From: Cliona cf. orientalis
Lineage: Eukaryota > Porifera > Demospongiae > Clionaida > Clionaidae
Reading direction: 5' to 3'
Length of the DNA stretch: 64,000 nucleotides
Assembly: GCA_963930775.1 (NCBI GenBank)
Contig: OZ005689.1
Coordinates: 9,126,854 to 9,190,853, forward strand
Of the stretch, positions 393-61,215 are shown one piece after another (within the stretch, counting starts at the first letter, position 1; every line of letters begins with the position of its first letter). A model generated the notes under the pieces. It made no database searches and was not told the origin of the DNA. It saw only the letters and a program-made list of their open reading frames with translations. A program made the position numbers and the translations under genes.

Positions 393-549
393 CTCGGCCA
401 CCGTACGCATCACACCTGGAAAATTCTTGGAAGCGGAATTTTGAGTCACACCTTAGAATTAAAGTTATTGAAGTATCCCCATATGTTTGTATAGGAAGCC
501 ATGCATTTGCAATGTTTGCCCATAAATAAATTACGGGCGCGCGGGGTAC

Positions 550-1475
550 GTTGACGACCCTTTGCACACTGATGCTAGCGGGAAAGGGTTGGGGGCAGTG
601 CTAGAACAGGAGGGTGAGGAAGGCAAAAATCACCCTGTGGCTTATGCTAGCCGTACTTTGTCGAAGCATGAGAAAAATTATGGGATCACTGATTTGGAGG
701 CCTTAGGGGTTGTGTGGGCGCTCAGACACTTTAGAGCGTACCTATTGGGTCATGCTTGTGTGGTTGTCACTGATCATACTCCACTCCGTGCTCTGCTTAA
801 GGCTAAGCACCAGTCTGGGAAGCTGGCTAGGTGGGGTCAGACGATTGCTGAGTTCAATGTAGAAATTAAGTATCGTCCGGGTCGTCAGCATAGCAATGCG
901 GATGCCCTTTCCAGAGCCCCTCTGGAGTCCGTAAACTCGGTACAGGCAGACAAGACAACCACTAATACAGTTGCTACTGACAATATGGCTAGTCAGCAGC
1001 GAGATGATCCCAAATTAAAGGCTATTATTGAATATCTGGATGGTGGAGTATTGCCCACTGACGAGAAGCTTGCCAAGCGTTTGGTTTTGGAGCAGTCTCG
1101 GTTCACAATACAAGATGGTGTTTTGTTTTATGTAGATGTAGCTCGTGAGGACTCACTCCGAGTAGCTGTGCCTTCCAACTCTCAGAGGAAGTTGTTGGAG
1201 GAAATTCATGGTGGTAGTCTTTCTGGTCATTTTGCTGCTAGGAGTATGTATAATACCCTGGCTAGGCGGTATTGGTGGGAAGGGATGTATGGGGATGTAC
1301 ATCGTTACTGCCGTGCTTGCCTCACCTGTGCTTCTCACAATGGTACTGGCCGTCGGCACAGAGCTCCACTGCAGCCAATTCCAGTCTCTGGGCCCTTTGA
1401 AAGGGTAGGAGTCGACATTATGAAGATGCCGCTGACGGAAAGGGGGAACCAGTACGTGATAGTCTTCATGGATTA
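550..1475 (+). pseudogene. Ty3/gypsy pol remnant, 5' part (RNase H, integrase N-terminus)
   Basis: The open frame begins inside the RNase H-like domain of a gypsy-type polyprotein. The HTDAS motif lies near 562 and a DALSR motif near 900. It continues through an integrase zinc-binding region (H and C residues between about 1200 and 1335) into the start of the integrase core (VGVDIMKMP near 1410). Gag, protease and reverse transcriptase are missing, so the copy is 5'-truncated near 550. The frame is cut at 1475 by a MITE and resumes at 1908. This is a dead genomic copy. Family assignment is firm; the exact clade is not determined. Confidence 0.85.
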
Positions 1476-1905
1476 CCGTAGACTCTGGTTAATAAGCGCA
1501 TGCGCTTATAGCGGTAAACGGAATGATAGTATGCGCTTAATAAAGGATATGCGCTTATATGGCACATAACCACGCCCACAAACGTTTGGGCACGTGATGG
1601 ATGCGAGGCCCGCTAGCACTAGCGCTCGATAGATCGAGCTCTTTCACGTTTACAGTTGCCGCTCAAGATGACGAGTACTGGCGATTTGTCGATCTTCTTG
1701 CATGATAACGTTATTCGTGGCCATCATTTCTCCAAAGATACCTGACTCCAAATACTTTCCAGCCGGTCAAACTCAGGTTCATAGAACGCCACGCCTATTA
1801 AGCGCATGCGCTTAATAAACAATAGCTTATGACAAGAAGAGGGCATGCGCTTAATAAATAATGTGCGCTTAATAGCGAGGTGCGCTTAATAACCAGAGTT
1901 TACGG
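1476..1905. mobile_element. 430-bp TA-flanked MITE inserted in the gypsy integrase
   Basis: The element begins CCGTAGACTCTGG and ends CCAGAGTTTACGG, with TA on both sides (1474-1475 and 1906-1907). This is the signature of Tc1/mariner-type elements. Many copies of AAGCGCATGCGCTTA-like words lie near both ends. An almost identical copy in reverse orientation lies at 3672-4101. It splits the integrase core in mid-codon. No long coding frame is present, so it is non-autonomous. Confidence 0.9.
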
Positions 1906-1907
1906 TA

Positions 1908-2710
1908 TCTTACGAAGTGGGTGGAGGCCTATGCCACTGAGGATCAAACCAGTGAGACTATATATAGCCAGGTTACTAGTTGATAACATTGTCTGCCGGC
2001 ATGGGGTACCTGCCGAGTTGTTGTCAGACAGGGGTCAGAACTTACTATCAGGTCTTATGCAGGAGGTATGCGACTTGCTCGGCATGCACAAGATCAATAC
2101 CACCGCATACCATCCTCAGTGCGATGGACTCGTGGAAAACTTTAATAGGACTCTGCAAACATTGTTAGCCAAGCATGCTAAGGAGTTCGGTCCATCATGG
2201 GATGTGCACCTCCAGCAGGTGTTATTTGCTTATCGGGCTAGACCACACTCTTCAACTGGGGAGTCACCATTCTACATGGTTTATGGTCGTGATCCACGTT
2301 TGCCTACCGAAACTGCATTCTCTGAAACCCGCACCCAGTATCGGGTAGATGCAGAAGACTATTGTGCGGAATTGACTCGAGGTTTAACGAAAACGTGGCA
2401 AGTGGCGAAACAGAACATTGGTAAGGCACAACAACGTCAGAAGGTTCAATACGACAAGTATTCGAAGGAGCCCAAGTACCAGGTGGCAGGCAGGGTCATG
2501 GTGTTTATGCCTCACGAGAAGACAGACAAACTTTCACTTCCATATCATGGGCCGTACAGAATTGTCGAGGTGTTGACGAATGGATTGTCTGTCAGACCGG
2601 TTGACAAGCCTAATATGAAACCAATACTTGTGAATGTTGACCGAGTCACTCCCTGCCCACCTGAGTTGGCCGACGAATCGTGGCTTGGGCTAAAGAAAGA
2701 GCGAAAGTGA
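1908..2710 (+). pseudogene. Ty3/gypsy pol remnant, 3' part (integrase core, GPY/F)
   Basis: This is the continuation of the integrase broken at 1475. It carries the core segment with HGVPAELLSDRGQ and HPQCDGLVENFNR, then a C-terminal GPY/F module (YHGPYRIVEVL near 2545) that ends before the stop at 2708. The first about 50 bp are out of frame with the rest; the shift lies in a TATATATA run near 1959-1966. The copy therefore carries a MITE insertion and a frameshift, and it is not functional. Confidence 0.85.
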
Positions 2711-2778
2711 GCTCGAACTCGCTACAATCTTCGAAAGTAAACTTTGAACACCCGAGGACGTGTGAGATAGGGAGCGGG

Positions 2779-3000
2779 TGATGTAATAACTGTGTTTCCT
2801 GATCTGTTTAATTAGTTGAGTTGTGTTCCTGATTTGTGGGTTAGTGATGTAATTGTTAGGTTTATTAATGACGTAATCGTATTGCATAATGCTGTTGTAC
2901 TTATCGTGTATGCTCATGTGATATGATCAGTCTGTGCTAAGTCAGTAAAAGACACAAGTACAATAAGACTCAGACTACGCTAGCCCACAGCGGCGTTGCA
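2779..3000 (+). repeat. Probable 3' LTR of the gypsy element
   Basis: A purine-rich stretch (AGATAGGGAGCGGG) directly precedes TGATGTAATAACTG, the expected layout of polypurine tract then LTR start. The right end near GCGTTGCA is a guess, because no 5' LTR remains for comparison. Confidence 0.5.
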
Positions 3001-3398
3001 TTAGCACAGGGCTATATGCTTGTACTGATTCTTGTTATTGTATGTAGTTTTATTATTATTATTATTCATGATTATTATTATTATTGCTTTACAGAATGCA
3101 CAAAGAGGAAAGAGAATAGGAATGGGGCTGGCAGTGATAACTTGAGTAGTTCATTCCTATAATAACAATGGTTCTTTTCCACATTCCCTTTTCAGCCTGT
3201 GTATGTAGTGTCAATATCTTCCTGATTATTCACCAGGCTACATAGAACCATCAAAAGGTGTAATCACTAACGCCAATGATATAATAGTGGGAACTTTCAA
3301 AGGGGGGGGGGGGGAGACTTTCACAGATGTTGCGGATCCAGAGAAAACTTTTACAGAACATTAAACTGATCATAATATAAATTAATGGGTGTGGCCTA

Positions 3399-3600
3399 CC
3401 GTATAGCGGGAAATTTTCGAGGGAGAAAACTTTCGCGGATCGGTAGGAAAGGAGCATTTCGCGGAGAAAACTTTCGTGGAACGTTAAAACTGGTCGCATA
3501 ATGGGTGTGGCATGCCTAGAATTTCGTGGAGAAAACTTTCGCGGATGGGTGAAAAATCGCGAAATTCGTGAAAGTTTTCTCCCTCGAAAATTTCCCGCTA
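3399..3600. mobile_element. MITE of the CCGTATAGCGGGAAATTTTCG family
   Basis: The left end CCGTATAGCGGGAAATTTTCG follows TA. The right side carries the inverted motif CGAAAATTTCCCGCTA but lacks the final bases, so this end is damaged. A complete relative lies at 54021-54185. Confidence 0.65.
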
Positions 3601-3671
3601 GACAAAACTTTTGCTGGTGGCTGTAAAATTGTGAAGGCTTTCTCCCTTTAAAGTTTCCCGCTATACAAGTA

Positions 3672-4101
3672 CCGTAAACTCTGGTTATTAAGTGCACCTC
3701 GCTATTAAGCGCACATTATTTATTAAGCGCATGCCCTCTTCTTGTCATAAGCTATTGTTTATTAAGCGCATGCGCTTAATAGGCGTGGCGTTCTATGAAC
3801 CTGAGTTTGACCGGCTGGAAAGTATTTGGAGTCAGGTATCTTTGGAGAAATGATGGCCACGAATAACGTTATCATGCAAGAAGATCGACAAATCGCCAGT
3901 ACTCGTCATCTTGAGCGGCAACTGTAAACGTGAAAGAGCTCGATCTATCGAGCGCTAGTGCTAGCGGGCCTCGCATCCATCACGTGCCCAAACGTTTGTG
4001 GGCGTGGTTATGTGCCATATAAGCGCATATCCTTTATTAAGCGCATACTATCATTCCGTTTACCGCTATAAGCGCATGCGCTTATTAACCAGAGTCTACG
4101 G
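3672..4101. mobile_element. Second 430-bp TA-flanked MITE, reverse orientation
   Basis: This is the near-identical reverse complement of 1476-1905. TA target duplications lie at 3670-3671 and 4102-4103. The undisturbed site survives in the paralogous stretch near 31701-31711 (CAAGTAGTTAGTGAA), which proves the ends and the TA duplication. Confidence 0.95.
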
Positions 4102-4564
4102 TAGTTAGTGAATGAGAAGAATATCTCTTTTTTTGTGTACTATAAGCATAATATGTTGGCTAGAATATGATCACAATCTTGTATGATGCATATACCGTTA
4201 ACATAATTTTTGTAAAGCACACTGGCAAGGGTTCACAGCTGCACCTGCAAATAAAATGCATAGACTCATTAACACTCTGTGTGTATCTGCCTCAGTGGCA
4301 GTACATTTAATTTCCTTTCCTCATGTTATATGCCAGGGTAATTATTTTGTGTGTCTGGTGTCACCACCAATAATTTATTTAATAGGCAGTTGATTGGCTA
4401 AGAAATATCATGAAGGTACTATAACTATGATAGGGTGAGAACTACAGAATCTGATATTTAGGTCCTAAATGTGAGAATTATCAGACGATCACTACCAAGA
4501 TTAACGGATGATGCAATACTGACTGTGAGCATGCATTTTGACTTAGTACACCATGTGCATATAC

Positions 4565-4811
4565 CTGAGGCAATCGTGTGAATCTCTGAATTAGAGCTTT
4601 GCTGGTGGCTGTGTGTTCTGATGTTAATGCTGAAAGGTACACACACAGAATGGGCACGTGCTGGAGTATGTAAGCAAGATCCTGGTGATACATGTACACT
4701 CTTGTGCGTCAAGTATCCAGTCACATCAAAAATTGATACATCATACGATTTATCTCCTGCGTACTGAGAGCAAAGCCTCGAGTAATACGACGAGTATGCA
4801 TCAAAGCACAT
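4565..4811 (-). pseudogene. Relic copy of exon 5 of the Ig receptor gene
   Basis: The minus-strand translation is very close to exon 5 of the gene at 30921-34888; it shares words such as SYDVSIFDVTGYLTHKSVHV. The 5' end of the exon is scrambled by a deletion near 4790-4830, and no partner exons lie nearby. It is interpreted as a duplicated, non-functional exon fragment. Confidence 0.75.
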
Positions 4812-4952
4812 CTCTTCATTGTTATGGCTTGATTTGCATATAAAATTTTGATAATGTTTAAAAATTTAATACTTCTGTCACTGACGCCCTATACCAGTAA
4901 TCACTTTTCACTAAAATTAGTATGACATTATTCTATAATAAGAACATACCAT

Positions 4953-6676
4953 GATTATGGCAATCCAAATGTGATAAAATTATCAAAATTCAAATTCAAG
5001 GGTACAAAAGTACAAAGCTGCATATAGAAGGGTGCAAAGATCAAACCTGCAAACTCAAGGGGATCTGTACAATATTACACTATTCAAAGATTTACTCCAG
5101 CGTTAACTGGCAGGAAAGAGTGTAGGGGTACACTCTTTCCTGCCAGTGTTACTCGGGAAATTGGGGGTTAAAATAGTGTGGGGGTACACAAAGGTCAATG
5201 CCCGCATATTACTGGGAGGAAACAGTGTAGGGGTACACTCTTTCCTGCCAGTATAACGGGAAAGAAAGAGTGTAGGGGTACACTCTTTCTGGCCAGTTAA
5301 TATCGGGAAGAGGAGAGTGCAGGGGTACACTCTTTCTTGCCAGTTAATAGTGGGCAGAGAAGAGTGCAGGGGTACACTCTTTCTTTCCAGTATTAGTTAG
5401 ACTCTGGAGAGCAATAGTGTGGGGTACACTCTTTCTTGCCAGTTAGTAAGCAGGCAGAGAAGAGTGCAGGGGTACACTCTTTCTTTGCAGTATCCTAATA
5501 AATCGCAGTGTGGATGCACTGTTTTATCTTGGGTAGCTGGCTAGCTATACTCCTTCAGTGCATATGTGCATAATGGCAAAGAAAGAGTGTACCCCTGCAC
5601 TCTTCTCTGCCTGCTTATTAACTGGCAAGAAAGAGTGTACCCCCACACTATGCTCTCCCGAACCTAACTAATACTGGAAAGAAAGAGTGTACCCCTGCAC
5701 TCTTCTCTGCCTGCTTACTAACTGGCAAGAAAGAGTGTACCCCCACACTATTGCTCTCCCGAGTTTTACTAATACTGGAAAGAAAGAGTGTACCCCTGCA
5801 CTCTTCTGTGCCTGCTTACTAACTGGCAAGAAAGAGTGTACCCCCACACTATTGCCCTCCCGAACCTAACTAATACTGGAAAGAAAGAGTGTACCCATGC
5901 ACTCTTCTCTGCCTGCTTACTAACTGGCAAGAAAGAGTGTACCCCACACTATTGCTCTCCAGAGTTAGATCTAACTAATACTGGAAAGAAAGAGTGTACC
6001 CCTGCACTCTTCTCTGCCCACTATTAACTGGCAAGAAAGAGTGTACCCCCACACTATTGCTCTCCCGAGTCTAACTAATACTGGAAAGAAAGAGTGTACC
6101 CCTGCACTCTTCTCTGCCCACTATTAACTGGCAATAAAGAGTGTACCCCTGCACTCTCCTCTTCCCGATATTAACTGGCCAGAAAGAGCTAGTGTACCCC
6201 TACACTCTTTCTTTCCCGTTATACTGGCAGAAAATTTAAAGAGTGTACCCCTACACTGTTTCCTCCCAGTAATACGCGGGCATTGACCTTTGTGTACCCC
6301 CACACTATTTTAACCTCCGAGTAACACTGGCAGGAAAGAGTGTACCCCTACACTCTTTCCTGCCAGTTAACGCTGGAGTAAATCTTTGAATAATCCCCAC
6401 CCAACTCAAGGATGCAAAAGTACAGAACTACATATGGCAGGGTGCAAAAGGTCAAACCTGTTAATTCAAGGAACTAGTTTATCAATTAATACTGTACTTT
6501 TGATTTTGTACTTTATAATATAATAGCTTAATGTGCCATCCACAGCTTTTGATTTGACCTTTTGCACCTTCCATATGCAGCTCTGTACTTTTGCACCCTT
6601 CCATATGCAAAATTTGTGCTTTTACACCCTTGAGTTTGAATTCTGATAATTTTGTCACGTTTGGATTGCCACACAT
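4953..6676. repeat. Giant inverted repeat (foldback) with tandem palindromic modules
   Basis: The outer arms begin GGCAATCCAAATGTGATAAA (left) and end TTTTGTCACGTTTGGATTGCC (right). Both contain the words CAAAAGTACAAAGCTGCATAT and GGGTGCAAA or variants. The inner part, 5090-6394, is a large palindrome whose arms are arrays of about 45-100-bp units. Each unit is built around GAAAGAGTGTA..TACACTCTTTC, itself palindromic. The symmetry centre lies near 5520-5590. No gene is present; short reading frames here are repeat artefacts. Confidence 0.85.
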
Positions 6677-7029
6677 GATCACTAAAGTGCATGTGTTTAT
6701 TACATTTTGTTTGCTAGCTACAATAATAAATATTCAAATAACAAAAAGTAATAATGATAATAATTATAGTATAAACTAGGGAAATAACTATTGTGGACAT
6801 CCAACAGACTTCACGAACAAAATAATATATTATAAGAACTATAATGTAGTATCACCTTAAAACCGCATTGAAATGTCAACAGACAATTTTATTGAACAGC
6901 TTGAGTTTCTAGCTCTTACAGCCTCTTCTAATTTCTTCTTTCCGGTAGAGCTAAACTTGTTACGCCACAATCTACAGATTGTGTAATTATAATAATACAA
7001 TGAACCATCATCATGCCTAGGTAAAAATG

Positions 7030-7385
7030 TTTCTCATTACCAATGTTGTTTTAGTTAACTAAAACTAATATCAAAACCCCTTCTTTTCCCCTAATTTATG
7101 CCTTAGTTTTAATTAACCAAAACTAACTTAACATGCCATGCCATTTTTAATTAAAAACTAAACTAAAGTAGTTATGGGACATTACTCTTAATTAAAAACT
7201 ACAAATAAATTTGCCAGAACCAGCTGATTTCAGCTCGATAACTACATAATGCAAATCATCTTTAGTAGACCAATTTTCATTTTAGTTTTAATTACTAAAA
7301 CTAAACTAAATTCTCCATTATACTCTAATTAAAAACTAAATCTAAAGAAGGAGACTTTAATTAACCTAATTAAAATTATCAAAGC
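7030..7385. repeat. AT-rich repeat with TTTAGTTTTAATTA words
   Basis: Words like TTTTAATTAAAAACTAAA and their reverse complements recur about eight times and form local palindromes. No coding signal is seen. The flanks 6680-7030 and 7390-7715 show nothing else recognisable. Confidence 0.5.
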
Positions 7386-10429: not shown

Positions 10430-13400
10430 TGAAGGTCTCTAAGTGAAGCGCAATGAGTGATGCCTTGTGCAAGAGCCAGGGCTCCATCATCACCAATATC
10501 ATTATCATCTAGGCTACATAAAAGAAAAACATTTCAAGACCAGTAGCTATGTGTTCTAAGCGTGTATGGGCAAACCATCATAGGATATTATACTATATTT
10601 ATTATGTACACTCCTTTCAATGACTATAATCCAAAACTTGCAAACACTCACTCCAAGTATTGAATTTCAGTGCAGATCTTTAGACCTTTTGCCAAATAGT
10701 GGGTGGATCCACTTGACCCAAGATTGTTTCCACTAAGACTGGAGAAAACGATTATAACTATTTGTATACATACACAGGCTAAATAATACATGTAATATCT
10801 GATAGAACTACTAACTGAAAATTAAAAACTCACATTAGTTTCGTAAGGCCAGTTCGACCAAATTCTGAGGACTGAATTTGTTCACTTCTATCAGTATTGC
10901 ATGAGGAAGCAGAGATAGTAATATTATAGATATTATATTGCAGTATTAATCTGGCATGACAGAACTAACATATTACACTAAGCATTAATTACCTGCTAAG
11001 GGCTTCAAGAAAAGCACCCACTGCATTGCCATTCCTACAATATTGGGAACAGTATTATAAATTTAATAGACGCATGCAAGTGTGAGTTGTGTAGCTATAA
11101 TAATACACATCAATAGCCTACTTTTTTTTTTGCTATACAACATCAAAAAATTTACCTCAGTTCCAAGGAGAAAGGACAACCCCCTACTTGCTGCAGAAAC
11201 AGAAATGCCGCCTCTACATTCGTGGAACATTCTTCAAACTCCAACTCGGCAATCCTTTCCTGCTCATTGGCTTGATGCACAACCGTTCCTATGACACAAC
11301 AGTCTGAGCGACTCAACTGCTTTTTGGAGAACTGTATTCGGTGTTTGAGAGATTGAATGACATGTTGACATGGCTGGGGCTGATGAGCTTCATATGCATA
11401 GTATATGCGTGTCAGTGTGTCCGTGTTCATCTCCACAAGAGTCTGAAACACGGGCTGTGTATCTTGTGCTTTTTGAAGCATCATTCCACAGAAGAACCTC
11501 CACATCACTTGAAGGTTGTCCTTACACCCATGAGCATTGATCAGTTTGATCTGTTTTTTCTCTGGCAGTCCTGCAATGTAAACAGCTGCTAGATATTCTT
11601 GAGTCGTCAGGTGCTGAAAGTTGTAGCTTTCGTCTTCACCAGTCTTCATGTAGTATCGATCTTTCACAACCAAGCCAAGTTTGCCAACTCCTTGAATGTG
11701 TTTAACGTCGGATGAAGTGAACATTTTTTTCGAATCGATCATCGCGTCAAAAGCTAAGTGACATATTTTGGTGAAGAGTTCTCTGTAATTTTTTGGGAGT
11801 TCGCCGAATGATGCTAATTTCACCAGCTTAGATTTTGCTCCTTCATTTTTCTTGATCGCTCGGTAGATGGTAGAAAGCATGAAGTGTTTGTAAATCTCAG
11901 TTTCAGTTGTTGGTATCACTTCATCTTCTTCATAAAAGAACACAAGCATAGCACAGTGAAGGGGAAGATAGCACATGTTCAACAGATTGGGGTAAGCGTG
12001 AAGGTGATCAATTAATTGCTGAGCTTTGCTTGTGTCATCCCCGAAGTAGTGCTTGATGTACTCAAAAATTTGACCTTTTAAAAACCCAAGAACTTCGATT
12101 TTCTTTCCCGCAAATCTTCGAAACTCAATACATGCGGAAGGACGAGAAGTTAACAAGACGACTGCTTTTATAAGGCTATGTCCGTACATAATTTCATGAA
12201 TATCTTCAATTTCACGTTTGACAGTTGATTTCTTCCCCTCTGCTGTCTGTATTTTGCGTTTAGAGTAACGAGGCTTATATTCATCAAGTCCATCGAAAAC
12301 AAACACGACACCTTTTCCCTGGCAGTACTCAATGTGAGATGCTAACTGCTTCAAGTCATCGGCTGGCAATGCAGGACATGTTACCTTGAGTATTGTCTGT
12401 AGGCTACGGTCTCGCTGGGCATTAAGATTTTGAAGGGGAACAAATATGACTAGATATGACTTTAACACATCACCGTTAGCCCAATCGCAGACAATCTTCT
12501 TTATGAGAACCGTTTTACCACTCCCAGGTCTTCCTTCAATCAGAATAAACTTTTTGTCCAATCTAGCGATATCATCAAATAAGTGTTGATAAGAGAGATG
12601 ATTTCTACCGGACAGTAAGTCCTCGACTGATCCCCGGAATGTTGTACGCCAGTTTGGACGAACGTTATCTTTGATCAGTGCAAGAGAGAAGAAATTCTGC
12701 TTCACTGGAGGCCAGGCATGACCATCACTTTGTCTAAGATAATATGTGGCAAGCATTTCACGGCACGTTAGACTCAGGGAATGAGTGGGGGTGAGCACTG
12801 TGCGCATAAAATAACAAAAATACATTCACAATGAATGTCACGAAATGTAGTTTGTAAGTGAATCATGTACATCGGCGAATAAAATAACAGTATATGCAGT
12901 ACACCAATGAAGCTAGGGGAATACGTATACACTAGAAAAAAATAGCTACAGTTAAAAATATTTTACACATGATGAAGTGTCTATTTTAATAAAGAAAACC
13001 TAGAAATATTGGCGTGCAATTAAATTTGACGAATTTAGCGATTCAATTTAAAACGCTAAATTAAATCTTCGCCAAACTTACCGACCTAGATGGGTCAAAG
13101 GTCATTGAGCCACGTGATTCAACCCGTACTAATGTACTAGACTGTGCACATGTACTATACTACACTGGCGTAAGAAGCAGGGGGGCTGGGAAGGCTGTAG
13201 CCCCCCCCATCTTGTCAGCCAAGTGGGCCTAAACTTAGGAAGATATTTATTCTACTAGACCTTGACATCTTGAAATTTGTGATGTAAAGTCTGCTTTACA
13301 GCCAAATTAGCACAAAAATGGGCATGGTTTGAAGGCATATGGTATGATCCAAAAAATTTTTGCGTACCTTGCGCACAATTTTATTTACAGCCCCCCTGTT

Positions 13401-16400
13401 CAACAACATCTTCTTACGCCACTGTACTAGCTAGATGATCGTACGACGATCGAATACTCACGTGCATGCTCTGCCTATTTTGGGCCGGCTTGGCATGTCG
13501 CTCTGATTGAGAAAAAAGCCAGTGACACTGACAGTTTGCCGCTACTGCCAGCATGAGATAAAGTTACGCATTCAACAAAGAAAGATTTGGAAGCTCAGTC
13601 AGGTAAGAAAATGGCTCCTAGCTACTATGAATCATTTTACGAGCTAAAACTTCCAAGTACTCGTTGTATGAATGGCAATAAGGCAGCAGTGTCAAAAGTT
13701 TTTCGCTGAACTAGCTAGGCCACAGTTTGTCTGAAAACATTGCTGAAATAAATATTCGCCAACGCGTCAATAACTCACAAAAAAACGCTAAATATTTTCT
13801 TCGCTAATATTTCTAGGTTTACAGTACCTGGTTCAGTAGTGGAATTCAAAGAGACACCAGCAGCTTGCAGACCTGCACATTAAGGAAAATAATAATATTA
13901 TTATGGCCTTCATGATTATGGTACTTCCAACAATAGGAACTTACCAGCCGGATACTGTTCAGCAATTCTTTTAGCCAAAGCATGACTTCCTCCACCAGAC
14001 TCATTCTCCACTGCCATAACCAATGCTCTCCAAGAAGGCATACCATACTTCATAGTATTGTAATCCTGATTAAGCCATTTCTGTACTACATCATTCAGTG
14101 CTTGCTGGGAGTTTTGTGAATGCTCTTGCTGAATTGCCTGGAGATCTCCGGAACGTAAACCCAGCATCACACCAAGAGGATAGTATTTGGATTTTAGTGA
14201 TACAATTGCCTGTATGACATCCTTTAGATCGTCTTCACCTACAATAAGTATGGCATTATAATAAAACATTATTATAACTGTCTGTATAATGCCGACAAAA
14301 TTTCTGGGTTAAACGAACTTATGCCATATAAAAGGGAGCACACAAATATGATTAGTCTCCTAAAAATGGCATCCAAGCCTCGCTCAAATAAAGAAGTTGA
14401 AAAGTTCGTGCACAACAAGCCCTCTTAGCACGAAATAACTGCCTTACTGACCATTAATTTACATGAAATAGCATGTACTACTAGCACAATATCATGCAGT
14501 AAGGAGTCCTACAGCTGGTTTTATAGACACTTGTGAGTGCCTACAAATACCTGTTGTTTAAAGGCTGAGCAAGGTACACCCTGGAGGTGACTTTCAGCAG
14601 TCAAAGGCAAAACAAAACTTCTGCTCGTCGATAGAAGTCATCCAAAACAGCGCTCGCACAATGTCATGCTTAATGTAGTTTCGACATAAGCTCACTGTAC
14701 CAATTATTATTGCTACTTGAACTTTCAACACAAAATGGCCACAAAAAATAACACACGTGCTTTACCAGCACGTGGTTCATAGTTGCATGGCAAACAGATC
14801 ATCCACGTTGTACCTTATGTATACACCACCCCGGGTGAAAAGGACCACGCAAATACGCGGTTAGTGCGAGCGTTGGTGGGTACAACACGGATATCCGCGG
14901 ATATACGTGAAATATTGACCGCTCAACGTCCAAGCATGCCCAAACGTGCGGGTTCAAGCGGTTCAAGAATTAACGACGATGGAGTTTCGACATTAAAGCA
15001 AGCTTGTAGCAGGCGATACTCAGGGTCGTTGAAGCTTAGCAGCCGAAGGTTCGAACGCGCACAGAATCGAAGCGCTCCTTTATTAACTTTGTTTTCGATC
15101 GCACTGGAAATAAACGGTTTGGGGCGGTATCGTGCGATAATACGCGTGAAAATTAGCATAAAACAGCGTATTTTCGACAATAAACCGCGCGTGCACGCGT
15201 TCCTTTTCTCCCGGGACTTCTTTTTCAAAGTTTGAATTTGGTTGCCATGTTTGTGCGCATAACAAAGACTTCCGACTGTGGCACCCCCTGTTATATTATG
15301 CTTCCTAGGCCATGGAGTTGCGTGAGATCACGAATGCAAAATGAAATGTATGTATATATTTCTTTATTCAACACCTGCTCGTTTCAGTGTGTCAGTGCTA
15401 TAAGTACAGTTACTTAGCTAGCTATCTAGCAAATTTGAAGTCACTAGAGTCTACAATTGTGGAGACATCAAAAAAAAATACAACAGCTCCATGTCACAAG
15501 CACTTACTGTAGCTACGGCTGACTTTTTCAAAGCTATAACTTGGTAAGTATAGTGCACGTGATCTAGGCCCTACAAAGTAGTCACTAATTTTATCACAGC
15601 AATGCTTCCTCAGGGTCACATACTGATTCTGTCTTTAATATTGAAACTCTGTTCAATACATGGTGTGTTTTACAATAAATATATAATTAATCATGGATAA
15701 TCTGGCTGATAATGGTACAAACAGTCGATATCAGACCTGCTCTATTCATGAGGGCAAGCATAATATTATATTCTACACTATAGTATATTGTATTGTACTC
15801 ACCTAGGAGGTGATTGTCAACACTATCATAGTCAAGATCTACAAAGGAAACATAGTACAAACTTGAAAGACATAGAGAGTATAATATACTTTGATAACTT
15901 ACCTGGTCCTGGGTTTAGCTCGACATCACCAGATCTTATAAGGAGGCAGGAATCAACGGAAGTCGTTTGCAGAAGAAAACCTGAATTATGTGTTGAGTGG
16001 TGATTATCAACATCATTACCAGGGCTTCATTTAGGGGGGGCAGGGGGGCGCTCCCCCCCCCCCCCCCTTGCTCCCCTTATAAAGCTGGTATTATCACACA
16101 CATAAAGTCAAGAAATCGCCTAACATGAATCATTATGATAATATTATTAAGTATTCAAAATGTAGTGCCTGAGAGTGCACCAGAAGCAATCTCTGGGAGT
16201 CCAAAATGCAAACATTTTCTGGGGGAGCATGCCCCCAGACCCCCCTAGAGATCGTGTGTACAGAAAATAGTCCTGCCCCCCCCCCCCCTTTGATCTCATA
16301 CTAGCTCGCTGTGCCCCCCTTGGGAAAGTTTCTAAATGAAGGCCTGATTACCCCCTCACTATGCTGTGCATGCATCAATTAATTATATTGTGTGTAGGCG

Positions 16401-16648
16401 TATTCCCTGACATTAAAGTAACTATATATCATGTTACATCTACATAGTTCGTATTATAGCTGCTTACATATTAAACAAAAAATGGCTTTAGCTGTCAAAA
16501 ACACTGCCACTAGTGATTTTATTTGGTGCCACGTGTCTGTGTTTGGTTTCACTCCTTTTGATCTTCTTGAAGGTTTCCTTGAAATACCCAGAGCACACCA
16601 GGATGAGCCGATACGAGCTCTCCAATCTTCAATACTCCAAAAAGGCAT
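10430..16648 (-). CDS. 2A-Death-NACHT-LRR receptor (NLR family), 3' end not seen
   Basis: NLRs are cytosolic STAND ATPases that oligomerise after sensing ligands. Minus-strand exons: 16468-16648, 15903-15980, 15803-15838, 13945-14238, 13828-13872, 11156-12797, 10993-11034, 10834-10887, 10652-10738 and 10430-10513. Every junction has GT/AG ends and keeps the frame, giving about 847 residues. Residues 1-85 are a leader ending in a 2A peptide. Residues 99-196 form a Death-like helical domain (DDLKDVIQAI, SWRALVMAVE). The NACHT domain has Walker A GRPGSGKT near 300, Walker B VFVFDGLDEY near 375 and sensor LLTSRPSA. The last exons encode ribonuclease-inhibitor-type LRRs such as LDDNDIGDDGALALAQGI. 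ATG 16648 is the first in-frame start. After exon 10 a repeat begins, and reading on gives an immediate stop, so further LRRs are lost or unseen. No start site or poly(A) evidence is visible. Confidence 0.85.
12997..13824. mobile_element. Non-autonomous element next to NLR exon 5
   Basis: Inverted ends AAAACCTAGAAATATTGGCG (left) and CGCTAATATTTCTAGGTTTAC (right) enclose about 0.8 kb. Inside is another insertion at 13163-13424, with ends CACTGGCGTAAGAAG and CTTCTTACGCCACTG, resembling hAT termini. The right end touches the splice donor of NLR exon 5 (exon end 13828). Confidence 0.6.
14750..15240. other. CpG-rich block inside an NLR intron
   Basis: CpG dinucleotides are frequent here (CGCGG, GCGCGTGCACGCG, CGAACGCGC) and rare on both sides. 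Open frames exist on both strands, but none looks like a known protein. It lies between exons 3 and 4 of the NLR gene. It could be an alternative promoter or a young insertion. The rest of the intron, 15240-15800, shows nothing else. Confidence 0.4.
15903..15980 (-). other. Exon coding a 2A-like ribosome-skipping peptide
   Basis: This 78-bp exon ends in SGDVELNPGP plus one base of the next codon. It matches the 2A consensus D(V/I)ExNPGP, with the usual hydrophobic and basic run (CLLIRSG) just before it. In known 2A peptides the ribosome fails to join the final Gly to Pro, so an 85-residue leader would separate from the Death-NACHT-LRR body, which would then begin with Pro. Exon 1 supplies a hydrophobic stretch (LVAVFLTAKAIFCLI) that continues into this exon as CFLLQ and could act as a secretory signal. 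Confidence 0.85.
16020..16346. mobile_element. Foldback element with poly(C)/poly(G) interior
   Basis: Ends CAGGGCTTCATTTAG and CTAAATGAAGGCCTG form an imperfect inverted repeat, as in hAT-type MITEs. Long C runs at about 16050-16068 and 16278-16288 lie inside. Only ATTAC is shared by the flanks, so the target duplication is unproved. Confidence 0.5.
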
Positions 16649-35096: not shown

Positions 35097-36149
35097 ATGG
35101 CTCAAGTTCCAAAAAATTACTCCCAGAGATCTCAGCAGCGGCATGTGCTGTTATCAATAGTTGCAGCTGTTATTGTTACCTTGTGCAGTATTTCTGAAGG
35201 TATAATATAATAATTTATGTTATTACTGGTAATAAGCTTCGGAAATCAATTACTGTCACTAAGTAATATAATACTTTTCAATAGGCGCGGTAACCTTTAT
35301 CTCTGAACCTCGAAATATGACAGTACTGGAAGGTAATTCTGTCAGATTCGAGTGTGATTTTGAGGGCAGTGATTTGACCCCTAGCTGGATCATCAACAAC
35401 TCCGTCTATTATCATACAAATTTACCACTGATTTATTCATTCGATGAACAGGATTTTTCGCTCATTATAAAGAATGTATCCCTTGATTTGAGTGGTACCT
35501 CGTTTGAATGTATTGTGGGTCGGAGAAAAAGTGCCAAAGGTGTGCTTATTGTCCTAAGGTCACAAGTAAATTCTAGTCATCCTGAGACTCCATCAGAAGG
35601 TAAATTCACAGCATACAATAATTATTATTATTCAGGACTGCTTTTCCGATGATAGACTTCAATGCCACTGATTTTGGATTATTTCTATCAACTAGTACTT
35701 TACTCAGTACACAATCACTAGTAACTACTTCTTTTGATGAGCATCAAACTAAAATTTCTACTCTTTGGTTGGGTAAGTGTGCACATTCACATTTAATTTA
35801 ATTGATCATTGGTTTATGATTTTTAATCTAACCCGTGATTTCATCAATTATATTATTGCAGTGACTTTGGGCGTTGTCATGCTTGCAATTATTGTATTGT
35901 ATCTGTTGCTGTTAGTCGTTGTGGTATCAGTCAGATCATGTGCTTCATACAAGAAGCGAACAAGAGGTGAATTATTTTAGATTTTATGCATAGACAGCTG
36001 CTACATAATTGGTTAATTCATTAAATTTGGTTACAGCTAATTCTGTTGCAATAACTGAAATGAACGATGCATACGGAGTATTCAATAATGAAGTTGCAAT
36101 GAAAGTAAATCCGGCTTATGAAGATCTTCAGCTTTACAGACATAACTAA
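35097..36149 (+). CDS. Short type I membrane receptor with one Ig-like domain
   Basis: Exons 35097-35199, 35285-35599, 35656-35772, 35862-35966 and 36037-36149 join with phase-1 GT/AG introns into a 250-residue product. Exon 1 is a signal peptide (HVLLSIVAAVIVTLCSISEG). Exon 2 is an Ig-like domain (FECDFEGS, SWIINNSVYYHTNLP, SFECIVG). Exon 3 is a Ser/Thr-rich stalk. Exon 4 is the membrane helix (VVMLAIIVLYLLLLVVVVSV) followed by basic residues. Exon 5 is a tail with DAYGVF, an NPAY motif of the PTB-binding NPxY type, and YEDLQLY. The exon 3 acceptor was placed after GATGATAG, because the nearer CAG puts a stop in frame. The ATG at 35083 is out of frame. It is a paralogue of the minus-strand gene that starts 208 bp away. 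Confidence 0.85.
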
Positions 36150-59300: not shown

Positions 59301-61215
59301 TCATATCCCGATCTTGCATGGGTCATTACCACTGCAAATGTCGTATGCAAATGCTAAGGCAAGGACTCCACAATCGGAACCATTTGACTGCCTTCCAACA
59401 TCCATCATTCTCACTACAAGCTGTTTAGCAGGACTGAACACAAGGCTGGCAATCAATTTGACCGTCCCACTGGAAGCACTGGAGTACATGCTGTCGTACA
59501 CATTGACCACTCCATCGTCACATCCAACGTTGGAAATAGTACACCAGTGACAGCCTCCAACAAAGATGATCTGCACAAATTCTCCTCTGAGGATTTGGAA
59601 CGATAGACTCCTGTGAACTGCCGGATCTTGCAGGCCGGCTATGTTTGGGAATTCCTGCAAGATAAACAACTGACCGGCCCTAATGACTGTGTCTGAGAGC
59701 CAACCATCAGATGAAACAATTTCCCGTTTCTTATCTATGTGCAAGGTGTACAGTGGAGTGGATACCCAGGTGTTGCTTACAACTGCAGAACCATCGGCTG
59801 AAGACAAGGCTGTGGGATCGTCAGTCAGGTCAACAACATGCTCAACAACAGGCTTGGCTAGGCCACAGTTACACACTTTGAGATTTGCAGAATCATTTGC
59901 TACATCTCGTAGTGAGGTCCTTCCTGCAGTTCGCCAGTTCTCTACTGAAATGGATGGATCACCGCTGATAGCCGTCAACTGCCCCTTTGCATAGCCAGTA
60001 GTGAGAACTCCCTTGTGACAACATAGTAGGCATCGATCACCAAACACTTGCACAACACAGCAAGGAAGGTGACATTTGCCCAATTTGCTATCATGCAAAT
60101 TCACGCAGTCACCCACCTTGAAGTTGGGCCTAGGCCTTTTCGCTGGGGGAGGCTTCTCATCACCTGGCTTTTCTCTCTTTCCTCGACGAGTGGACCTCGT
60201 ATCGACCGGCTTGCTTGCTTTAGGAGGTTTGGATTTCACACAAGCATCATCCTTGCCATTCTTGTCAGAGTCAGCAGAAGAGGCCTTGGGAAACAATGTG
60301 CACCCAACGTAACGATTTCGTGAGTTTGAGGGGCAATCCCTCTTGTGTGCTCGTCCGAGCGCTCGCAGTGAAGGACTTAAATTTCTGCAGCTTTTCCAGC
60401 TGCTTCTTGTGGCCCTACCGGCATGCCCACCACAGATCATGATCTCTGCGTTGGGAAAGTGGTCTGTCACTGCCTTAGCAGAGGAGGAGTCGGCATCTTG
60501 CCACTGAATGGCAATGTTCATTACTTCGTCCTTGGCTTTTTTGAACGTAAGGCGTGCGGCATAGCCTTCGGCACCCTTGGATGTCCCCTGGTAGAGCTCT
60601 TCTTTAATTATGTCATCTCTGCCTTTCTGACAGAGATGCTTGCGGTAAAGAATAGCTCCATTGTAGTAATTTCGAATGCTGAAAGTAGCATTCTTAAGCT
60701 TGCTGTGATGACCACGTGTCATCCACGTGCCATCAGCGGACGGGACGGCACGACTCCATGAACCCAGTTCATTTTGGTCCATGCGTTGCATGCCATCCTT
60801 TGCATCATTGCACATCTTATCGACCATCTCTTTGACAATAGGGTACATTCTCTTGATGGTCGAGTCAAACATTGGCCAACTAACTCCTTCAATCCCAAGT
60901 GCATGCTTCAATAAGTCACATGCGTGCAACCAGCTATGATAAAAGCCACCTGCGCAGCAATACTAATTTCGGTAGCACAGCCAAGTTCGTATTTAGATGA
61001 TGTTTCAAACAATGCCCACTGACTAGCACAACCGTTACAAGCATAGGTGATAGAAAGAGCACCACCCAGCCCAAGGCTTTTCACATGAATGGGACACAAT
61101 GCACCTTTACAACCAGGTGTGGCACAACAACGTATTTGATTCACTTGCTTAATGATGGGCGTATCTAGTGGGTGTGGTCTATGTCCCTGGAGCTGTTCAG
61201 GAAAAGTTGGAGCCT
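59301..61215 (-). pseudogene. Mutator-like transposase joined to a Ulp1-type protease, frameshifted
   Basis: Read on the minus strand, a Cys-rich segment starts after a possible acceptor at 61215 (CCATPGCKGALCP, CNGCASQW). A transposase core follows, with SADGTWMTRGHHSK, WQDADSSSAKAV and CGGHAGRA; the two Asp-containing blocks fit a DDE-type core of the animal Mutator-like group. After a basic linker and a beta-rich segment (FKVGDCVNLHDSKLGKCH) comes a C48-type cysteine protease: GGCHWCTISN, VYDSMYSS and QSNGSDCGVLALAF give His, Asp, Gln and Cys in the right order. The frame is shifted near 60925 and again just after CGGHAGRA near 60415, and the middle of the transposase is missing. The C-terminal 360 residues remain open. 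MULEs carrying Ulp1 proteases are known in plants. Confidence 0.7.

Follow-up and report, generated by a model that had tools for sequence, protein, structure and literature searches.

The locus considered here raises the question of whether one gene can deliver an innate immune receptor and a second protein from a single mRNA, and of what that second protein would be. It lies on the minus strand of a 64,000-nucleotide (nt) stretch of the genome of the demosponge Cliona cf. orientalis (assembly GCA_963930775.1, contig OZ005689.1, positions 9,126,854 to 9,190,853), which is called the window below. The gene encodes an NLR protein with a Death-like, a NACHT and a leucine-rich-repeat (LRR)-like region, and its reading frame opens with a hydrophobic leader that ends in a 2A ribosome-skipping signal. 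The arrangement is best read as a two-product immune gene, in which a membrane-type leader protein and a separate cytosolic Death-NACHT-LRR receptor would arise from one mRNA, and a probability of roughly two in three is attached to this reading.

The Leader and Its Gene

Ten exons read without a stop from the ATG at 16648 to at least 10430, with GT-AG at all junctions (Table 1), and the gene probably continues further downstream of 10430. An in-frame TAG stands immediately 5' of the ATG; the phase is 1 at the end of exon 1 and 1-1 for each of exons 2 to 5. The joins by which an earlier note on the window had connected the first exons with one another and with the Death exon (16468 to 15980, 15903 to 15838 and 15803 to 14238) are all GT-AG and all in phase 1. 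The hydrophobic 85-residue leader described there, ending in SGDVELNPG before a proline, is likewise present (MPFWSIEDWRARIG...CLLIRSGDVELNPG). It had been assigned to three exons, which do join in phase, but it is encoded by exons 1 and 2 only; a Death-like exon does follow, although not directly after the 2A proline, the linker of exon 3 (DLDYDSVDNHLL) standing between the two. Similarly, a canonical 2A is found at the edge of exon 2, but not exactly at the boundary, a single base separating the proline codon from the donor. The 36-nt exon 3 has a counterpart of equal length and phase in the paralogs termed C5-type (exon E4 in locus L011).

This 2A is the sole match of the NPGP patterns in the six frames of the whole window. 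Directly before DVELNPGP stands CLLIRSG, compared by eye with the upstream context as described for 2A signals (Roulston et al., 2016; PMC4981915; this and the other papers are cited here for parts of their text).

The NACHT assignment is clear (79.2 bits against a cut-off of 26.7). For exon 4, the Death family PF00531 matches at E 0.0035 (17.9 bits, where the cut-off is 22.6). WGG (PF10273), which is unrelated to Death, likewise stays below its cut-off but has a slightly better E of 0.0015. Across the Death-exon family, PF00531 is found at E of 0.1 or below in 6 of 13 members, with 8e-5 as the best value, and a comparison of the family profile with PDB places the death domains of FADD nearest among solved chains, with E values of 0.1 or more. 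The Death label is thus suggested, if weakly, by matches below the profile threshold together with conservation across the family. The translation of exons 7-10 (LSGNNLGSSGS...LDLDDNDIGDDGALALAQGI) was judged by eye to resemble leucine-rich repeats, and the repeat-like exons of 87 and 84 nt, also read by eye, share one phase.

A Genome-Wide Family of 2A Leaders

The earlier note had suggested a search for further exons with W-RARIG and NPGP upstream of NACHT genes, and a family of such leaders was found. In the 216.8 Mb assembly (149 contigs), with reversed patterns as controls, DxExNPGP occurs at 155 sites (control 1), GDVELNPGP at 62 (control 0) and the exon-1 motif W-R-(A/V)-R-I-G-(S/T)-(S/C)-W, WRARIGSSW in one form, at 43 places (control 0). 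A chance origin of the motifs is ruled out by the counts of 155 against 1 and 43 against 0, and confinement of the leader to the window gene was rejected as well.

The 43 exon-1 copies were picked independently of 2A and then paired with 154 of the 155 DxExNPGP sites. A same-strand DxExNPGP lies within 9 kb downstream of 41 of the 43, and on the opposite strand the count is 0 of 43; one of the remaining two carries the variant GNVEENPGP. In the other direction, DxExNPGP stands within 12 kb upstream of 12 of the best-scoring 103 NACHT places (out of 490 candidates), and most NLRs of the genome are without the 2A-leader arrangement.

Thirteen exon-1 loci (L009-L020 and L028) were read over 9-10 kb each, and a NACHT match to the window protein was found in ten. 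Identity to the window gene reaches 86% in the first 21 residues (C5-type loci and L028), amounts to 45-50% in the Death exons (12 of 12) and ranges, by stretch, from 26 to 51% in NACHT. The receptor is not always of the same kind. Locus L018 carries a SPRY domain (3.5e-12) in place of NACHT, together with a COR-A match (6.7e-8) whose 33 bits fall just under the cut-off of 35.3, and L019, by eye, resembles it in architecture. Both loci of this SPRY/Roc-COR type contain two tandem 2A exons before the Death exon, DVERNPGP followed by DVEM/TNPGP, which may yield three products from one mRNA or be alternative exons.

In L009, no NACHT match was found in the 10 kb read. This appears as a broken copy with an in-frame stop in the Death exon, its leader frame still being open, and its 2A exon contains three consecutive copies of DVALSVAASVILSLLL. 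A separate frame, about 7 kb downstream of the leader, looks by eye like a reverse transcriptase.

Two further groups of 2A sites were noticed in the same genome. A second leader family (MMDGVDLDVSQARA...) forms DVELNPGP arrays on contigs C13 and C18. Its leader, of about 250 residues and with five hydrophobic segments in L021, has 42 genome matches, some of them partial, and no RARIG exon was found in the three loci read (L021-L023). Downstream of the leader, L021 contains a Death-like exon, a TRADD-like match under cut-off and ankyrin repeats. The other group belongs to a Helitron (L026; Helitron_like_N 1e-31, PIF1 2e-27). Ahead of its replicase frame come a leader, which contains several hydrophobic segments, and a 2A of the form DIEVNPGP; the leader stretch occurs twice. 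All 15 listed 2A sites of this DNA type lie on contig C1, between 18.0 and 35.6 Mb, with L026 as the one that was read; no open-licence paper was found that joins 2A-like signals, transposon and Helitron.

Conservation and Relatives of the Leader

Selection was estimated from the proportions of synonymous (pS) and nonsynonymous (pN) differences. Over the first 22 codons of eight divergent leader types, pooled pS is 0.58 and pN 0.12 (pN/pS 0.21), and the window gene differs from the other seven types by pS of 0.52-0.90 and pN of 0.10-0.17. For the C5-type, counts and trees include 11 of 14 loci (L016 and L017 were left out for their length and L031 for its divergence; L009 was retained, with the stop in its Death exon skipped). 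Here the leader, made of three exons and 232 codons, gives pN/pS 0.36 (bootstrap 5-95%: 0.28-0.44), its first 22 codons 0.11 (0.02-0.35) and the Death exon 0.48 (0.41-0.60). The first 22 leader residues are, on these counts, under purifying selection. Leader exons of the C5-type paralogs diverge by 0.04-0.10 and the introns inside the leader by 0.24-0.31, and this excess in the introns supports the exon model.

A profile built from 13 leaders, in a search that scored the 8000 candidates sharing most words, recovered at least 161 proteins at E of 0.01 or below from a protein collection. The motif is present in 113 of 123 collected proteins, a count that holds partly by construction because most of them were found with the leader profile itself; M-P always stands at the motif start, and 5 of the 113 have a 2A in the same open frame. 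Some of the public contigs with leader proteins may come from the same species as the window. However, P0003 and P0005, two of these five, are only 53% and 61% identical to their best-scoring genome places (up to 70% over short N-terminal stretches), so that leaders of this kind probably exist in at least one other species.

Peptide patterns matched 33 stretches in the viral_contigs collection and 7 in the GTDB genome_contigs, none of which was confirmed as a relative of the leader, and a prokaryotic or viral origin is therefore unsupported. No Pfam family scored above cut-off for eight leader proteins, the two sub-threshold matches being ABCC10_N in P0003 (0.0094) and zf-C3HC4 in P0037 (0.11), and no PDB sequence matched the leader profile at E of 1 or below.

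Exon Modularity

Among 48 distinct 2A sites read out of the 155, NPGP is followed within 16 nt by a phase-1 GT donor in 44; the same was found near 15% of 3000 random positions. Without splicing, the frame of 47 of the 48 runs into a stop 6-231 nt beyond NPGP.

The 11 C5-type paralogs carry two Death types that are clearly distinct. Linker-Death divergence is 0.137 within types and 0.356 between them, whereas leader DNA diverges equally (0.118 within, 0.119 between), and the Death grouping is rejected by the leader data (approximately unbiased test, p 1e-45). The leaders of L011 and L038, for example, are 97.6% alike, but their Death types differ. To judge from these comparisons, modules have recombined among paralogs, and the leader and Death exon histories are discordant. 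The modularity behind the earlier suggestion of a swappable leader cassette is thus borne out by donors and trees; swapping of leaders alone was nevertheless dropped, since NACHT is also alike across both Death types, with 87-94% protein identity among five loci (L010, L011, L016, L017 and L020; the Death types of L016 and L017, which are outside the trees, were assigned by eye). For the same reason it may be the Death exon that changed place.

Membrane Character and Proposed Mechanism

A single strongly hydrophobic segment occupies residues 46-64 of the window leader (mean hydropathy 2.66), with a net charge of +6 before it. Related leaders reach about 230 residues, and the one in L011 has four segments above threshold; because of such leaders, the product looks like a small membrane protein rather than a signal alone.

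Splicing, skipping, membrane insertion, localisation and function are predicted in what follows from the DNA. One spliced mRNA would encode the leader, the 2A stop-go signal and then a cytosolic receptor starting with proline. In the window leader, 21 residues separate the end of the hydrophobic segment from the skip site. The ribosome exit tunnel holds about 30-40 residues, and the segment would still be inside it at the moment of skipping. Skipping would then precede emergence of the segment, and post-translational insertion is therefore proposed, as for tail-anchored proteins, with the basic N-terminus and the WRARIG motif in the cytosol. Where skipping failed, the segment would emerge and direct the whole receptor to the membrane. 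Selected for its own sake, the leader would reside in the membrane as a partner or regulator, and through its N-terminal motif it may contact something shared, given that related leaders precede receptors of different architecture.

Several observations weigh against this scheme. The exon-1 copy of L053 has no 2A within the 2.0 kb read, and the P0003 leader has no hydrophobic segment at the threshold used. Shuffled versions of the window leader have at least one segment in 80 of 500 cases, and those of the L011 leader as many as four in 18 of 500, so that composition alone explains part of the segment counts. The upstream context, which is important for 2A activity, was assessed by eye alone. 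Searches with joined leaders gave no match that could be shown to come from a spliced transcript, and in P0125 and P0126 the 2A is linked to Death, as read, through a frame that stays open across the introns.

The strongest alternative, although an unlikely one, is a dual-targeting signal as in the sea urchin, where partial skipping would leave some of the receptor in the cytosol and send the rest into the secretory path, and the freed leader would be functionless. This is in essence the idea of Roulston et al. (2016; PMC4981915), and the earlier note had followed the same line. Sea urchin NLR 2A signal sequences do have both activities (PMC4981915), and the single segment of the window leader with its preceding positive charge would suit one. 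Such a signal, however, needs neither a 22-residue motif at a pooled pN/pS of 0.21 nor, as in L011, four hydrophobic segments in a leader that is about 230 residues long. The role of the leader as a targeting signal is thus to be modified, as the conserved first 22 residues and the long relatives suggest more.

It is less probable still that the 2A is inactive in the sponge and that the leader is a plain N-terminal membrane anchor tethering the receptor. An even number of segments, as in L011, would hold a fused receptor on the cytosolic side, and the exon-1 copy with GNVEENPGP also points in this direction; yet an idle 2A should decay, and DxExNPGP is kept in 41 of 43 copies found by exon 1 alone. 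Finally, it is most improbable that the NLR link is a modelling artefact and that the leader exons form a small gene of their own or an isoform with a retained intron. The early stop of the unspliced frame would give a stand-alone leader and no spliced transcript was seen, but three observations speak against this reading: the excess of phase-1 donors (44 of 48 against 15%), the in-phase succession of a 2A exon, a 36-nt exon and a Death exon shared by the window and the C5-type paralogs, and P0125 and P0126, where 2A, linker and Death are again read in this order.

Comparison with Known Systems

As the earlier note had mentioned, 2A-like signals near NLR N-termini are known from the sea urchin Strongylocentrotus purpuratus, in which 85 of 241 NLRs carry them (Roulston et al., 2016; PMC4981915). 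Both animals have many gene copies for Death-NACHT-LRR proteins in which D(V/I)ExNPGP stands beside hydrophobic residues, either at the N-terminus or close to it, and the sea urchin 2A studied gave about 80% recoding in vitro, a non-skipping mutant going to the Golgi (PMC4981915). In the 14 entries characterised there, a 26-residue N-terminal element doubles as the signal sequence. By contrast, the window leader has 85 residues and begins with a conserved motif, and the sponge leaders in general span 85 to about 230 residues, occupy separate exons and share a 22-residue N-terminal motif. Other sea urchin NLR 2As lie within the N-terminal region (PMC4981915), and longer leaders are possible there too. 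Against the sea urchin entries compared, only the sponge has the leader also on a SPRY/Roc-COR receptor, and tandem 2A exons (L018 and L019).

The 2A signals of picornaviruses and of non-long-terminal-repeat retrotransposons share the DxExNPGP motif and the proposed stop-go mechanism, but are internal in polyproteins, whereas those of the sponge belong to intron-bearing host immune genes. Among cellular genes, the 2A literature cited here names NLR proteins (PMC11512398), the case studied being that of the sea urchin, which was interpreted as dual targeting (PMC4981915).

Large sets of NACHT and NACHT-LRR genes, similar to those considered here, are reported from the sponges Dysidea avara (PMC12909245) and Halichondria panicea (PMC8242945), including Death-NACHT-LRR genes in D. 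avara (PMC12909245). Domain counts in both studies, in the parts cited, are based on Pfam, in which no family scores above cut-off for the sponge leaders tested. Neither "leader" nor "skipping" appears in the main text of either paper, as far as it was available. The open-licence literature yielded no report of 2A leaders in sponge NLRs and no description of the conserved leader family. NLR 2A leaders as such are known from the sea urchin, and the sponge genes differ in having a conserved leader protein that has spread over several receptor types.

A wider proposal is put forward tentatively, at somewhat less than even odds. The leaders would constitute an undescribed sponge family of membrane proteins (N-terminal MPxWSxxEWRARIGSSWCALGR), encoded on the same mRNA as an innate immune receptor and freed by ribosome skipping. 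Phase 1-1 modules (leader, 2A, linker and Death) would recombine into mix-and-match "polyprotein" receptor genes, with the leader as a working partner and not only an address label.

Other Features of the Window and the Genome

Transposon-like stretches and an immunoglobulin-type frame also occur in the window (Table 1). Elsewhere in the genome, a pattern presumed to capture the serine-for-cysteine active site of silicatein has four matches (control 0). Three, clustered on contig C12, read serine; the remaining one, on C19, has cysteine, a residue that the pattern accepts as well. For the one C12 frame compared (L050), the nearest solved chain is silicatein alpha (2e-25).

Table 1. Coordinates of the features in the window and, where a locus is named, in that locus.
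Feature	Position	Strand	Description
Exon 1	16468..16648	-	Encodes the ATG, the N-terminal conserved motif MPFWSIEDWRARIGSSWCALG, a basic stretch and the larger part of the hydrophobic segment; donor gtaagc, phase 1 at the end
Insert in intron 1	16020-16346		15-nt inverted ends (93% complementary, 297 nt between) and G-runs; resembles a miniature inverted-repeat transposable element
Exon 2	15903..15980	-	End of hydrophobic stretch and 2A signal; acceptor ttcag, donor gtaagt; phase 1-1
2A core G-D-V-E-L-N-P-G/P	15904..15930	-	Predicted skip between G and P; genome position G000:C1:9142758-9142783
Exon 3	15803..15838	-	36-nt linker DLDYDSVDNHLL, phase 1-1
Exon 4	13945..14238	-	Death-like domain, phase 1-1
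Exon 5	13828..13872	-	Short linker exon, GT-AG, phase 1-1
Exon 6	11156..12797	-	NACHT NTPase, PF05729 4e-22; sub-threshold HD2-like match behind NACHT
Exons 7-10	11034-10993, 10887-10834, 10738-10652, 10513-10430	-	Leucine-rich-repeat-like, GT-AG, phase 2-2
Tandem 2A exons	L018 1126 and 1496; L019 8030 and 7826		By eye, one C5-type-like and one C4-type-like
Reverse-transcriptase-like frame	L009 7906-9765		By eye
Second 2A leader family	L021 2922-7540		
Helitron	L026 (G000:C1:18006000-18015999) 1971-7365	-	
Gypsy-like remnants	526-2710		RNase H 3e-35, integrase zinc-binding 4e-19
Immunoglobulin I-set domain frame	35272-35649	+	4e-6
Open frame	59304-60962	-	Mutator-like transposase and Ulp1 protease, each a weak match below cut-off

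Implications

The occurrence of 2A leaders on NLRs in a demosponge places the arrangement far from the echinoderms. Annotation could miss such leaders, because those tested match no Pfam family above cut-off and all are encoded by short exons that sometimes lie several kb upstream of NACHT. Their conservation leads to a new and testable claim, namely that the product in front of the 2A is functional. If the leader is a partner of the receptor, skipping would set the ratio of leader to receptor at its source and would offer a simple means of switching, at translation, between a cytosolic receptor and one bound to the membrane.

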